Part shown: in pieces, positions 4,429 through 49,029 of the stretch
How the letters are laid out: every line of letters starts with the position of its first letter
Position numbering within the stretch: position 1 is the stretch's first letter
NCBI RefSeq assembly: GCF_036199905.1
Contig: NZ_CP108109.1
Location: 310,001-374,000 of the forward strand
Source of the DNA: Streptomyces sp. NBC_00223
Lineage (GTDB): Bacteria; Actinomycetota; Actinomycetes; Streptomycetales; Streptomycetaceae
Length of the DNA stretch: 64,000 bases
Direction of reading: 5' to 3'
Translations under genes and position numbers: made by a program
The notes under the pieces: model-generated
The model's input: only the letters and a program-made list of their open reading frames with translations
Databases searched by the model: none
Told to the model about the DNA's origin: nothing

Positions 4429-6243
4429 CTACGGCGCCGTGGTCGCCAGCCGGCTGTCGCGCCGCACCAGGGCGGCGTAGCGGCCGTCGAGGGCGAGGAG
4501 TTCGTCGTGCGTGCCGCGTTCGGTGATCCGGCCGGCGTCGAGGACCACGATCTGGTCGGCGTCGCGCACGGTGGACAGCCGGTGGGCGATGGTGACGGTG
4601 GTGCGCCCGGCGGACAGCTCGTCGATGGCCTTCTGCACGGCGCCCTCGGTCCGCGTGTCGAGCGCGCTGGTGGCCTCGTCGAGGATGAGCACGGGAGGGT
4701 CGCGCAGGATCGTCCGGGCGATGGCCAGGCGCTGCTTCTCGCCGCCGGAGAAGCGGTAGCCGCGCTCGCCGACGAGCGTGTCGTAGCCGTCGGGGAGCCC
4801 CGCGATGTGGTCGTGGATCTGCGCGGCCCGGGCGGCGGCCCGCAGTTCGTCGTCGGTCGCGTCGGGCTTGGCGAACCGCAGGTTCTCCGCGATCGAGGCG
4901 TGGAAGAGGTACGTCTCCTGGGCGACCACGCCGACCGCCGAGGACAGGGTCTCGAAGGTGAGGTCGCGTACGTCGACGCCGTCGAGCGTGACCCGGCCGC
5001 CGGTCACGTCGTAGAGCCGGGGCACCAGATAGCTCAGGGTGCTCTTGCCGGAGCCGGTCGCGCCGACGACGGCCAGGGTGCCGCCCGCGGGGACACTCAG
5101 GTCGATGCCGCTCAGGGTGGGCGCGCCGCTACCGGGTTCGTAGGCGAAGTCGACGTTCTCGAAGCCGATGTCGCCGCGGACCTTCTCGATCCTTACCGCG
5201 CCCGGGCGTTCGGTGATGTCGACGGGCAGGTCGAGGTATTCGAAGATGCGCTGGAAGAGCGCGAGCGAGGTCTGCACCTCCACGCCGGTGGCCAGCAGTT
5301 GGACCGTGGGGCGGAAGAGGCCCTGCTGAAGCGTGACGAAGGCGACCAGGGTGCCGATCGAGACGGCGGGGCCGCCGTGACCGGTGGTCAGGCCCGCCGC
5401 CCAGTACAGCAGCGCGGGCATCGCGGACATCACGATGCCGATGACGGCCATCCGCCAGCGGCCCTGCATGTTGGAGCGCACTTCGAGGTCGACCAGCCGC
5501 TCGGACTGGTCGGAGAAGTCACGGGTGAGGGAGCCGGCCCGGCCCATGGTGCGGCCGAGCAGGATGCCGCTGACCGACAGCGACTCGGTGACGATCGAGG
5601 ACATCACCGCCATCTGCTTCTGCCGGTCGGTGGCGATGCGCTTGCGCTCGCGGCCGACCCTGCGGGCGATCCAGACGAAGACCGGGAGCAGCAGCACGGA
5701 GACGACGGTCAGCCGCCAGTCCAGCGCGACCATGGCCACCAGGGAGGCGATCACGGCGGTGAGGTTGGAGACCAGGGAGGTCGCGGTGGAGGTGACGGTG
5801 GCCTGCATGCCGCCGATGTCGTTGGCGATCCTGGACTGCACCTCGCCGGTGCGGGTGCGGGTGAAGAAGGCGAGCGACATCCGCTGGAGCCGGTCGTAGA
5901 CCGAGGTGCGCAGGTCGTGCATGACGCGCTGGCCGACGGTGGTGGAGATCAGGGTCTGCAGGACGCCGAAGACGCCGGTGGCCACGGCGGTGGCGATCAT
6001 GCCGAGGGCGAGCAGGCTGAGCAGTCCGGTGCGGCCCTGCGGGATGGCGGTGTCGAGGATCGCCCGCAGCAGGAAGGGCGAGGCGACCGAGACGAGGGAG
6101 GACAGGCCGACGAGCAGTCCGACGACGGCGAGCCGCCCCCGGTAGGGGCGGAAGAGGCGGACGATACGGCGTACGTCGTGGGACGCGCCGGGTTTCTTGC
6201 CCGGTGGTGTCCACCGGGAGGAGAGGTCGTTTTCGGGGCGCAA
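4429..6243 (-). CDS. ABC exporter, fused permease and ATPase
   Basis: A half-transporter of about 604 residues: six-helix exporter domain in the first 320 residues, then a nucleotide-binding domain with Walker A GATGSGKST, Q-loop VVAQETYLFH, signature FSGGEKQRLAIAR, Walker B VLILDEATSALD and H-loop TIAHRLST, all intact, so it should work as a homodimer. I chose the TTG at 6243 because GAGGAG lies 4-5 nt upstream; the frame is open to another TTG at 6279, but that lies almost on the predicted -10 box. It is divergent from a MarR-family regulator, with one operator-like palindrome between them, suggesting MarR control of drug or metabolite efflux. The substrate is unknown. Confidence 0.88.
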   Translation of the reverse strand: MRPENDLSSRWTPPGKKPGASHDVRRIVRLFRPYRGRLAVVGLLVGLSSLVSVASPFLLRAILDTAIPQGRTGLLSLLALGMIATAVATGVFGVLQTLISTTVGQRVMHDLRTSVYDRLQRMSLAFFTRTRTGEVQSRIANDIGGMQATVTSTATSLVSNLTAVIASLVAMVALDWRLTVVSVLLLPVFVWIARRVGRERKRIATDRQKQMAVMSSIVTESLSVSGILLGRTMGRAGSLTRDFSDQSERLVDLEVRSNMQGRWRMAVIGIVMSAMPALLYWAAGLTTGHGGPAVSIGTLVAFVTLQQGLFRPTVQLLATGVEVQTSLALFQRIFEYLDLPVDITERPGAVRIEKVRGDIGFENVDFAYEPGSGAPTLSGIDLSVPAGGTLAVVGATGSGKSTLSYLVPRLYDVTGGRVTLDGVDVRDLTFETLSSAVGVVAQETYLFHASIAENLRFAKPDATDDELRAAARAAQIHDHIAGLPDGYDTLVGERGYRFSGGEKQRLAIARTILRDPPVLILDEATSALDTRTEGAVQKAIDELSAGRTTVTIAHRLSTVRDADQIVVLDAGRITERGTHDELLALDGRYAALVRRDSRLATTAP

Positions 6244-46477: not shown

Positions 46478-47638
46478 TCAGACGGCCGGCACCGGGCGCG
46501 CGGGCGGCGGGCCGACATAGCGCGCGGCCGGGCGGATGATCTTGCTGTCCTCGGCCTGCTCCAGGATGTTGGCGCTCCAGCCCACCACCCGGGCGGCGGC
46601 GAAGGTCGGAGTGAACATCTCCCTCGGCAGTCCGCACAGCTCCATCACCACACCGGCGAAGAACTCCACGTTGATGTGCAGGTCGCGGCCCGGCTTCAGC
46701 TCGGCGAGTATCGCCTCGGCCCGCTCCTCGACCTGGACGGCGAAGTCCACGAGGTCGCCGCCGAAGTCGCGCGCGATGCCCTTGAGCAGGCGGGAACGCG
46801 GGTCCTCCGTGCGGTAGACGGGGTGGCCGAAGCCCATGATCCGGTCCCCGGCCCGGATGTGGGCGCGCAGCCACCCGTCGATCCGGTCCGGTGTCCCGAT
46901 GGCGTCCAGGGTGTCGAGCGCGCGGCTGGGCGCGCCGCCGTGCAGCGGTCCGGACAGCGCGCCGACCGCGCCGACCAGGCAGGCGGCGAGGTCCGCGCCC
47001 GTGGAGGCGATGACGCGGGCGGTGAAGGTCGAGGCGTTGAAGCCGTGGTCGACCGTCGAGATCAGATAGCGCTCGACCGCCCGCGCGTGGGCCGGGTCGG
47101 GCTCCTGGCCGGTCAACATGTAGAGGTAGTTGGCCGCGTACGGCAGGTCGTCACGCGGGGGCACCGGATCGAGCCCCTGCCCGAGCCGGTACAGCGCGGT
47201 GAGCAGGGTCGGCACGGCGGCGCAGGCGGCCAGCGCGTCGGCGAGCCGCTGCTCGGGGTCGAGGTCGTACAGCGGCCGGAAGCCGGCGGCGGCCCCGGCG
47301 AGCGACAGGGCGGTACGCAGCCCCGCGAGCGGCCCGGAGGGCGCGGTGGCGCGGGCGATGGCGGGGAGCGCGGCGGTCACCTCGGCGGGCAGGTGCCGCA
47401 GCGCCGCCGTCCTGACGGTGAAGGCGGCCCGCTCGGCCACGTCGGGCAGTGTGCCGTGGAACATCAGATGCCAGACGTCCTCGAAGCCGCGGCTCTCGGC
47501 AAGCTCAACGGCCGAGAACTCCCGGTAGTGGTAGAAGCCCTCGGCCCCGCGGACGTCGCCGAGGGCCGTCTCGGTGACGATCACGCCCTTGAGGCCGCGG
47601 GGCACGTCGATCGGGGCGGTGGACTCGATGGTCGGCAT
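46478..47638 (-). CDS. Citrate synthase / 2-methylcitrate synthase
   Basis: 386 residues, ATG at 47638 with a strong AAGGAGGAA site. Type II bacterial citrate synthase: TVDHGFNASTFTARVIASTGAD (quoted in part: DHGFNASTFTARVIAST), first catalytic histidine in GALSGPLHGGAPSRAL (about His216), second in RIMGFGHPVYRTEDPR (about His255), and the acid position in LHINVEFFAGVVMELCG, here glutamate where many family members have aspartate. It condenses acetyl-CoA or propionyl-CoA with oxaloacetate. It is divergent from a second, HTH-fused citrate synthase, with a repeat-rich 107-bp gap. Confidence 0.9.
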   Translation of the reverse strand: MPTIESTAPIDVPRGLKGVIVTETALGDVRGAEGFYHYREFSAVELAESRGFEDVWHLMFHGTLPDVAERAAFTVRTAALRHLPAEVTAALPAIARATAPSGPLAGLRTALSLAGAAAGFRPLYDLDPEQRLADALAACAAVPTLLTALYRLGQGLDPVPPRDDLPYAANYLYMLTGQEPDPAHARAVERYLISTVDHGFNASTFTARVIASTGADLAACLVGAVGALSGPLHGGAPSRALDTLDAIGTPDRIDGWLRAHIRAGDRIMGFGHPVYRTEDPRSRLLKGIARDFGGDLVDFAVQVEERAEAILAELKPGRDLHINVEFFAGVVMELCGLPREMFTPTFAAARVVGWSANILEQAEDSKIIRPAARYVGPPPARPVPAV

Positions 47639-47690
47639 GGTCTTCCTCCTTGAGTATGTACTTGACTGTCCATGATTGATTACTGGCCTG

Positions 47691-47716
47691 TCAATGTTGA
47701 TTGAATCAATGTTGAT
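47691..47716. promoter_or_regulatory. Operator-like repeats between the two divergent citrate synthase genes
   Basis: TCAATGTTGAT occurs twice as a direct repeat (47691-47701 and 47706-47716, 15-bp period) and the two overlap a perfect palindrome TTGATT-G-AATCAA (47697-47709). This AT-rich island stands out from the surrounding GC-rich DNA. On the minus strand TTGACA follows 3 bp from the repeat and may be a -35 box for the citrate synthase gene; no clear -10 was found. Confidence 0.55.
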
Positions 47717-47745
47717 CCCGGGCTGGATAGGGATACGGTGAGGCC

Positions 47746-49029
47746 ATGACGCAGCAGGAGGGGGACGGCGGCACCGTCCCGGGCGGTGGCGAGGGCGACG
47801 ACGGCAGGATCGGTACGCGGGAGGCGGCCCGGCGGCTCGGCGTCAAGCCGGAGACGCTGTACGCGTACGTCAGCCGCGGTCTGCTCGGCAGCCGGCGGGC
47901 GGCCGGCGGGCGGGGCAGCACCTTCGACCCGGCGGAGGTCGCGGCGCTGGCCGGGCGCGGCAGAGCCGCCGCCCCCGCGGAGCCGCCCGAGGGCGACTGG
48001 GGCCGGGTGCGTACGGGGATCACCCTCATCGAGGGCGACCGCTGCTACTTCCGCGGTGTCGACGCGACGGCGCTGGCCGAGGCGTACGGCTACGAGGAGG
48101 TCGCCGAGTGGCTGTGGACGGGGGTGCTGCGGCCCGGGAAGCGCTTCACCGCGCCCGCCCGGCCGCTCGCGGCGGCGCGGGCGGCGGCCGGGGCGCTGCC
48201 CGCGGACAGCGGTCCGATGGACCGGCTGCGGGTCGCCGTGATCGCGGCGGGGAGCGCGGACCCGCTGCGGTTCGATCTGTCGCGGGAAGCGGTGCTGGGA
48301 TCCGCGCGGAGCCTGATCCCGACGCTGGTCGACGCGCTGCCAGGGGCCGGGCCGCCGGTCGGGGAAGGTGAGCCGCTGGCCGGGCGGCTGTGGTCGCGGC
48401 TGACCGCGGCGCCGGCCGACGAGGCGTCGCTGCGGGTGCTGGACGCGGCGCTCGCCCTGCTCGTCGACCACGATCTGGCGGCCTCCACGCTGGCCGCCCG
48501 GGTCGCCGCGTCGGCCCGGGCGCATCCGTACGCGGTGGTCTCGGCGGGGCTGGGCGCGCTGGACGGACCGCTGCACGGGCAGGCCAGCGCGTTGGTGCAC
48601 CGGATGCTCGCCGAGGTGCTTGAGCGCGGCAGCGCGGGCCCGGTGGTCGCCGAGCAGCTGCGGGCCGGACAGCGGATTCCGGGCCTGGGCCACCGGCTCT
48701 ACCGGGGCGAGGACCCGCGGGCCCGGCTGCTCCTCACCCTCCTCGACCGGGTCCCCGCGGCGGCCGACGCGCTGGCGGCGGCCCGGGACGTGCTGACGAC
48801 CACGGCCCGGCACGGCCCGCTGCACGCGAACGTCGACCTGGCGCTCGGTGTGCTGTCGGTGTCGTGCGGGATGCCTGCCGAGGCGGGCGAGACGGTCTTC
48901 GCGGTGGCCCGTACGGCGGGGTGGATCGCGCACGCGCTGGAGGAGTACGGGGAGCGGCCGCTGCGGATGCGCCCGCTCGGCGCGTACGACGGCCCCCGCC
49001 CGCCCCAGCCCCTCCCGTCGCCGCACTGA
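47746..49029 (+). CDS. Citrate synthase-like protein with N-terminal helix-turn-helix domain
   Basis: 427 residues. Residues about 20-68 form a MerR/excisionase-like HTH: GRIGTREAARRLGVKPETLY, AYVSRGLLGSRR, GSTFDPAEVAALA. The rest is a citrate synthase fold with conserved positions: GALDGPLHGQASALVHRM (first His, about 279), IPGLGHRLYRGEDPRA (second His, about 318) and HANVDLALGVLSVSCG (catalytic Asp, about 367), so activity is possible. An extra feature is the shortened small domain. The divergent promoter region carries direct repeats and a palindrome, the natural binding place for the HTH. It may be an enzyme, a metabolite-sensing regulator, or both; this is inference. Confidence 0.85.
   Translation: MTQQEGDGGTVPGGGEGDDGRIGTREAARRLGVKPETLYAYVSRGLLGSRRAAGGRGSTFDPAEVAALAGRGRAAAPAEPPEGDWGRVRTGITLIEGDRCYFRGVDATALAEAYGYEEVAEWLWTGVLRPGKRFTAPARPLAAARAAAGALPADSGPMDRLRVAVIAAGSADPLRFDLSREAVLGSARSLIPTLVDALPGAGPPVGEGEPLAGRLWSRLTAAPADEASLRVLDAALALLVDHDLAASTLAARVAASARAHPYAVVSAGLGALDGPLHGQASALVHRMLAEVLERGSAGPVVAEQLRAGQRIPGLGHRLYRGEDPRARLLLTLLDRVPAAADALAAARDVLTTTARHGPLHANVDLALGVLSVSCGMPAEAGETVFAVARTAGWIAHALEEYGERPLRMRPLGAYDGPRPPQPLPSPH

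Follow-up and report, generated by a model that had tools for sequence, protein, structure and literature searches.

The window analysed here, a stretch of 64,000 nucleotides from Streptomyces sp. NBC_00223, contains two citrate synthase genes that point away from one another across a gap of 107 bp (47639-47745). One codes for a plain citrate synthase, the other for a citrate synthase preceded by a MerR-type winged helix-turn-helix (HTH), designated HTH-CS. The coding features are as follows.

46478 to 47638, minus strand: plain citrate synthase of the CitA/PRK12350 type, 386 aa, with Glu in place of the catalytic Asp
47746 to 49029, plus strand: HTH-CS gene, 427 codons with an ATG start (ORF list, Pfam, alignment A1, AlphaFold2, Foldseek)
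47809 to 47961, plus strand: coding region of the winged HTH, residues 22-72 (alignment A1, AlphaFold2 model, fold neighbours)
HTH-CS residues 37-45: recognition helix TLYAYVSRG

The protein is thus laid out as a winged HTH at about residues 22-72, a disordered linker at 73-85, and a citrate synthase domain at 89-410. An initial annotation had proposed the fusion of a MerR/excisionase-like HTH (about residues 20-68) to a citrate synthase, the retention of both histidines and the aspartate, and a divergent plain citrate synthase across a 107-bp gap, and all three proposals held; its starting position, 47691, is that of the first repeat in the gap, and the open reading frame itself begins at 47746.

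HTH-CS joins an enzyme domain and a DNA-binding domain in a single polypeptide, a fusion established by its sequence. Pfam assigns MerR_1 (PF13411) to residues 25-68 with 25.8 bits against a cut-off of 21.6, and Citrate_synt (PF00285) to residues 89-410 with an E-value of 3.2e-63, over its cut-off; PF00376 and HTH_17 each remained under their own cut-offs on this protein. In the AlphaFold2 model (whole-model mean pLDDT 87.8), the winged HTH consists of helices 24-31, 35-43, and 62-72 together with a two-strand wing, and is followed by a low-confidence linker (residues 73-85) and then the citrate synthase fold; the coiled-coil dimerisation helix after the HTH is absent, and the disordered linker stands in its place. 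The top Foldseek neighbour of the whole model is the Thermus thermophilus citrate synthase 1ixe. A fold search with the HTH alone returned RacA, SoxR, the Xis protein of phage Pukovnik, and BldC at E 5e-3 to 1e-2, with no neighbour under E 0.001, and a sequence profile search matched the HTH weakly to Gp37, SoxR, and TipA. The enzyme domain is only about 33% identical to the neighbouring plain synthase, one of four citrate synthase domains in the whole genome, and passes none of the NCBIfam models of named citrate or 2-methylcitrate synthases (best score 155.6, cut-off 332). The plain synthase scores just over the PRK12350 cut-off (339.1 versus 332). Glu occupies the usual catalytic Asp position (NVEF) in all 44 full-length plain partners among 48 collected, whereas HTH-CS retains the Asp; Bacillus subtilis CitA (2c6x), the closest protein by sequence to the plain partner, carries the same Glu.

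The fusion is widespread. An HTH-CS query found matches at E 1e-40 or better in 34 of 35 genomes of the genus (four matching genomes, G004, G009, G017, and G034, were left out of the locus comparison) and in 27 of 296 genomes sampled from the phylum as a whole. A profile from alignment A1, comprising 17 diverse HTH-CS members, matched 53 of 296 genomes of the class at E 1e-78 or better, and 17 of 28 within the family (hand-counted). Beyond this set the E-values jump to 3e-67 and the weaker matches start downstream of the HTH; the single case inspected below the gap, L194, is a plain synthase. Among the 53 genomes, 30 loci and 19 further ones were read, with L194 as a twentieth serving as a control, and some of the remainder were left unread. 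Beyond the phylum, the search covered plasmid records, of which only two matched by tblastn at E 1e-20, from Embleya and Nonomuraea.

The recognition helix ranks among the most conserved parts of HTH-CS. Residues T37, Y39, A40, Y41, V42, S43, R44, and G45 are invariant in A1 (n = 17), and the motif T-[LV]-Y-[AS]-Y-[AV]-S-R was present in 49 of the 50 loci outside the family in which it was sought, the exception (L193) being one where a run of N breaks the reading frame. Family f85 has the helix TVYAYASRG and a linker that can exceed 50 residues. An HTH lacking basic recognition-helix residues would have refuted the regulatory role proposed in the initial annotation, and this outcome was not encountered. 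The active site is equally intact: HTH-CS has the catalytic histidines H277 and H316 together with the aspartate D364, and H242, H277, H316, R325, D364, R389, and R409, which we take to be the substrate and catalytic residues of the pig and E. coli citrate synthases, are all invariant in A1 (n = 17). All 53 HTH-CS members compared retain the two histidines and the aspartate, although many other positions vary.

Within the gap, the following features can be recognized.

47690 to 47716, strand unassigned: conserved operator GTCAATGTTGATTGAATCAATGTTGAT, defined by sequence and conservation, without binding data
47691 to 47700 and 47706 to 47715: two TCAAyrTTGA cores in the operator
47695 to 47711: inverted repeat yrTTGA-N5-TCAAyr in the operator
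47665 to 47694, minus strand: predicted plain-synthase promoter, with -35 TTGACA at 47689-47694, an 18-nt spacer, and -10-like GACAGT at 47665-47670
47712 to 47739, plus strand: predicted HTH-CS promoter, with -35 TTGATC at 47712-47717, a 16-nt spacer, and -10 TACGGT at 47734-47739
47659 to 47672, strand unassigned: TACTTGACTGTCCA, counterpart of S. coelicolor TTGACTTAACTGTCCA, outside the operator

The initial annotation had reported a direct repeat, TCAATGTTGAT, and a palindrome, TTGATTGAATCAA, in this gap; both are present, the repeat beginning at 47691 and 47706 and the palindrome spanning 47697-47709. The repeats are more than a chance occurrence, because TCAAYRTTGA is found at only four places in the 7.96-Mb genome, two of them here; of the other two, as read by eye, one precedes a GntR-type gene and one falls within an open frame. 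Comparison among loci gives the general form of the repeat as TCAAyrTTGA with a further TCAAyr arm after it. The fixed direct repeat (TCAATGTTGAT twice, 15 bp apart) was considered as the operator and proved only partly right: the distance between arm starts is mostly 14, 15, or 18, the second copy is often just TCAAyr, and yrTTGA-N4..8-TCAAyr fits more loci.

Conservation of the repeat beside orthologues, a check the initial annotation had suggested, came out in favour of a regulatory role. Every genus locus with the divergent pair carries the exact 10-base core (29 of 29), as do 17 of 18 loci with the pair outside the genus, L060 being one base off; where the pair is lacking, the core was found in none of one genus locus, which has no upstream sequence, and in four of eight outside the genus. 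L024 and L044 start at contig ends without upstream sequence and are both counted as misses in this tally, and L034 is cut at a contig end with its upstream sequence still present. In a further set, the best 80 named genome matches (nearly all titled Streptomyces), 73 loci have the divergent pair, all 73 with the core and 70 with the two-arm form, compared with none in shuffles; among the seven loci without the pair, three carry the core and four have no exact core. Shuffles are a weak null inside one family because the genomes are related, and the test was therefore run outside the family. There, within 330 bp, the core was found at 36 of 49 loci, the inverted repeat at 39, and either at 44, across ten or more families, against 0.02 loci in shuffles and 0.25 expected from the remaining sequence of the loci. 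Fifty loci were taken and 49 counted, the N run of L193 leaving no readable frame; L189 (contig end) and the synthase-only control L194 were left out. The figure of 44 is partly fitted, since the inverted-repeat pattern had been loosened on the same data after one genome group without the left TCAA was noticed; the exact core alone accounts for 36. Four of the misses (L060, L163, L164, and L166) are by eye departures of one or a few bases, and the fifth, L045, has a site at its synthase, about 1 kb off. Each of 14 genomes searched has the full pattern at a single place, always the locus of HTH-CS and its partner (reversed control, 0). Conservation, single occurrence, and position of the operator are thus established by sequence. 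A wider regulon was also considered and is rejected for the genomes searched.

Both divergent promoters have a predicted -35 element that overlaps the operator, and the HTH-CS -35, TTGATC, falls in the second repeat. The corresponding -10 lies 6 nt before the ATG, and the predicted HTH-CS transcript is probably leaderless. In 105 same-family loci, which mix unnamed and named genomes and possibly include some of the same species, TTGACA overlaps the core in 100, a -10-like hexamer stands 16-18 nt from it in 89, and TAYNGT just precedes the HTH-CS start in 93. These promoters are a reading rather than a detection because a scan of the gap with a strict sigma-70 consensus found none. Other regulators also act here, as indicated by reports in two species: the S. 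coelicolor sequence TTGACTTAACTGTCCA was published as MtrA-bound, MtrA binding the gap by EMSA (PMC12323332), and for the S. albus pair slnwt_1427/slnwt_1428 binding of RspA1 to the promoter regions is reported (PMC7411085). According to a review (PMC10704036), citA and citA4 of Saccharopolyspora erythraea are repressed by GlnR. By eye, the segment at 47659-47672 is conserved in most genus loci, and the plain synthase has its predicted -10 in this same stretch.

Rearranged loci separate the site from its usual surroundings. In L203 (G109) an additional ORF separates HTH-CS from the plain synthase, beside which the operator is retained. In G512 the divergent synthase is broken and a full-length plain synthase lies 20 kb from HTH-CS; cores are found 68 bp from the matched start of the distant synthase and 81 bp from that of HTH-CS. 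At five loci (L195-L199, in genomes G047, G076, G401, G334, and G454), an HMGL-type synthase takes the place of the plain one, divergent from HTH-CS and with the same core in each gap. One such partner, scanned against Pfam, matches PF00682 (E 4.8e-45) and a homocitrate-synthase domain; for one scanned against NCBIfam, the best model is the homocitrate synthase NifV at 233.5 bits, under the cut-off of 462.9. This type of partner could conceivably be a Re-citrate or homocitrate synthase, its substrate being inferred from its family only. A plain synthase orthologue is found in none of ten family genomes without HTH-CS, which have only a paralogue of 41-46%. G227 and G057 keep HTH-CS, including its HTH, and have neither a plain synthase orthologue nor an adjacent site, so that the HTH there outlives its known target. 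Together with the four of seven pairless named loci without a core, these two genomes indicate that the site tracks the partner more than it tracks HTH-CS. At L102, L107, L150, and L151 the adjacent partner is absent or disrupted and the site is still present, which supports autoregulation, less strongly than partner regulation is supported. As a separate observation, L201 (G147) has tandem cores at 6186 and 6201, spaced as in the window, with no synthase adjoining HTH-CS.

We consider it likely that HTH-CS is a single-target trigger enzyme that represses the plain synthase and itself under the control of a ligand; binding to the operator, repression, and ligand control are inferred. Citrate synthases dimerise, and the dimers close on their ligands. 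With a MerR-type winged HTH borne by each subunit on a flexible linker, the HTH-CS dimer would present two HTHs to the inverted repeat yrTTGA-N4..8-TCAAyr. Bound there, it would block RNA polymerase on both sides, because the operator overlaps the predicted -35 of both divergent promoters, and so would repress both genes. Active-site ligands (oxaloacetate, acyl-CoA, citrate, or similar) may then alter domain closure or oligomeric state such that the DNA is released, dimer closure with one HTH per subunit coupling the ligand to the grip on DNA. The long, variable linkers and the arm spacing of N4 to N8 would fit heads that are tethered and not rigidly held. The model is supported by L203, G512, and the HMGL-type loci, in which the operator stays with the partner; the plain and HMGL-type partners possibly share acetyl-CoA and 2-oxo acid substrates, if the latter follows its family. 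Counting against it are the arm spacing itself, which is unusual for a rigid dimer, the loci of G227 and G057 and the pairless named loci without a core, the failure of the predicted promoters to pass the sigma-70 scan, the other regulators reported at this gap, and the absence of binding, expression, or enzyme data for HTH-CS. Repression rests solely on the promoter geometry, which favours it, in the absence of expression data. The proposal in the initial annotation, control of the divergent pair by the fused protein acting on the repeat, is accordingly supported without binding data, and its list of ligands (acetyl-CoA, propionyl-CoA, oxaloacetate, or (methyl)citrate) is still an inference, the would-be binding residues being invariant.

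In logic, the closest known system is PutA of Escherichia coli, a proline dehydrogenase and repressor that likewise is an enzyme with its own DNA-binding domain and acts on a single target, the region separating its own gene from a divergent partner, with PutA binding confined to the putA/putP gap (PMC8249747). PutA differs in having a ribbon-helix-helix domain, membrane switching, and a transporter as partner, whereas HTH-CS combines a MerR winged HTH with a citrate synthase fold and is partnered by a second condensing enzyme. BirA and NadR also join an HTH to a biosynthetic enzyme and regulate its pathway, but they are multi-target in E. coli (PMC8249747), unlike HTH-CS with its one site per genome in the 14 searched; the enzyme part of HTH-CS is not known to be related in sequence to theirs. 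MerR-family and BldC/excisionase domains share the winged HTH fold of the HTH-CS head, yet HTH-CS has no coiled-coil dimerisation helix and its effector part is an enzyme. The minor citrate synthase of B. subtilis, CitA, is controlled by the divergent repressor gene CitR; CitR is LysR-type, whereas the divergent regulator here is itself a citrate synthase. Adjacent citrate synthases resembling the window pair have been described in Streptomyces: SCO5831/SCO5832 (citA3/citA4) of S. coelicolor, with MtrA-bound promoters (PMC12323332), and slnwt_1427/slnwt_1428 of S. albus, in opposite directions across a 194-bp gap, slnwt_1428 being called 'distinctive' (PMC7411085). Orthology of these pairs to the window pair is inferred from arrangement and annotation, without sequence comparison. 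The relevant passages on both pairs treat the genes as enzymes and mention neither an HTH nor self-regulation, and SCO5831 is otherwise mentioned for abundance or expression (PMC9739823, PMC7324645, PMC8981147). The open-access literature searched, judged mostly by title, held no recognisable description of a DNA-binding domain on a citrate synthase or of its operator. What is new here is probably a trigger enzyme built on citrate synthase, carrying a MerR-type head and served by an operator of its own that is conserved across classes; its binding, direction of control, catalysis, and ligand are inferred.

Among the alternatives, it is unlikely that HTH-CS binds the operator with its citrate synthase domain serving merely as a dimerisation scaffold, without catalysis or ligand sensing, the regulator being constitutive or otherwise controlled. 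The low identity to the neighbour (about 33%) and the best NCBIfam score, 155.6 and so far under 332, favour this view. A scaffold, however, would have no need of conserved active-site residues, and all seven substrate and catalytic residues, their roles taken from general knowledge, are invariant in A1, with H, H, and D in all 53 members. It is also unlikely that HTH-CS is an activator of the partner promoter of the MerR kind. The DNA-binding domain has the MerR fold and many MerR proteins activate, but MerR activation requires a 19-20 bp promoter spacer and a coiled-coil dimer; the predicted spacers read 18 and 16 (the promoters being unproven), the model has a disordered linker and no coiled coil, and the operator overlaps the -35 elements and not the spacer. 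Less probable still is that the operator is a site of MtrA, GlnR, RspA1, DasR, or an unlinked factor, with the HTH acting elsewhere or nowhere. The MtrA and RspA1 results on the S. coelicolor gap (PMC12323332) and the S. albus pair (PMC7411085) speak for this, but the published MtrA site (47659-47672) is outside the operator, the operator occurs once per genome unlike the sites of a global regulator, it accompanies HTH-CS in families of other classes and moves along with the partner gene, and few parts of HTH-CS are as conserved as the recognition helix. Finally, that the HTH is a relic or protein-protein module and HTH-CS a further citrate synthase isozyme agrees with papers treating the pair as citrate synthases (PMC12323332, PMC7411085) and with the four citrate synthase domains of the genome, but is rendered very improbable by the strict conservation across classes of the recognition helix and a cognate-looking site.

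Returning to the trigger-enzyme reading, citrate synthase gates the entry of carbon into the TCA cycle, and antibiotic-producing actinomycetes hold several copies, with little explanation so far of how each is controlled separately. If the reading is true, one copy would be sensor and switch for another, providing direct enzyme-to-promoter feedback at the acetyl-CoA branch point, from which polyketide synthesis is also supplied. Being short and single-copy, with a similar layout across classes, the operator lends itself to testing. The exchange of a plain synthase for an unrelated HMGL-type enzyme at a like operator would show a regulator that kept its job while its target was replaced. A bolder proposal, for which the case is evenly balanced, is that a citrate synthase is itself a metabolite-sensing transcription factor in many lineages of the phylum, reading acetyl-CoA and oxaloacetate (or the product) in a working active site and setting the transcription of the adjoining acetyl-CoA-condensing enzyme, a plain citrate synthase in most lineages and an unrelated HMGL/homocitrate- or Re-citrate-type synthase in others, via one dedicated operator per genome.

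A separate observation concerns the plain synthase gene, which is split at codons about 38-41 in contigs C7 of G216 (L266, L267) and C53 of G512 (L268, L269, L270). The split gene resembles an attachment site for mobile elements, a possibility of which the open-access literature searched held no description. Its 5' piece adjoins HTH-CS and the rest lies about 163 kb (G216) or 115 kb (G512) away, and Phage_integrase genes are found beside a synthase copy in both genomes (E 7.7e-14 in G216 and 1.7e-10 in G512).
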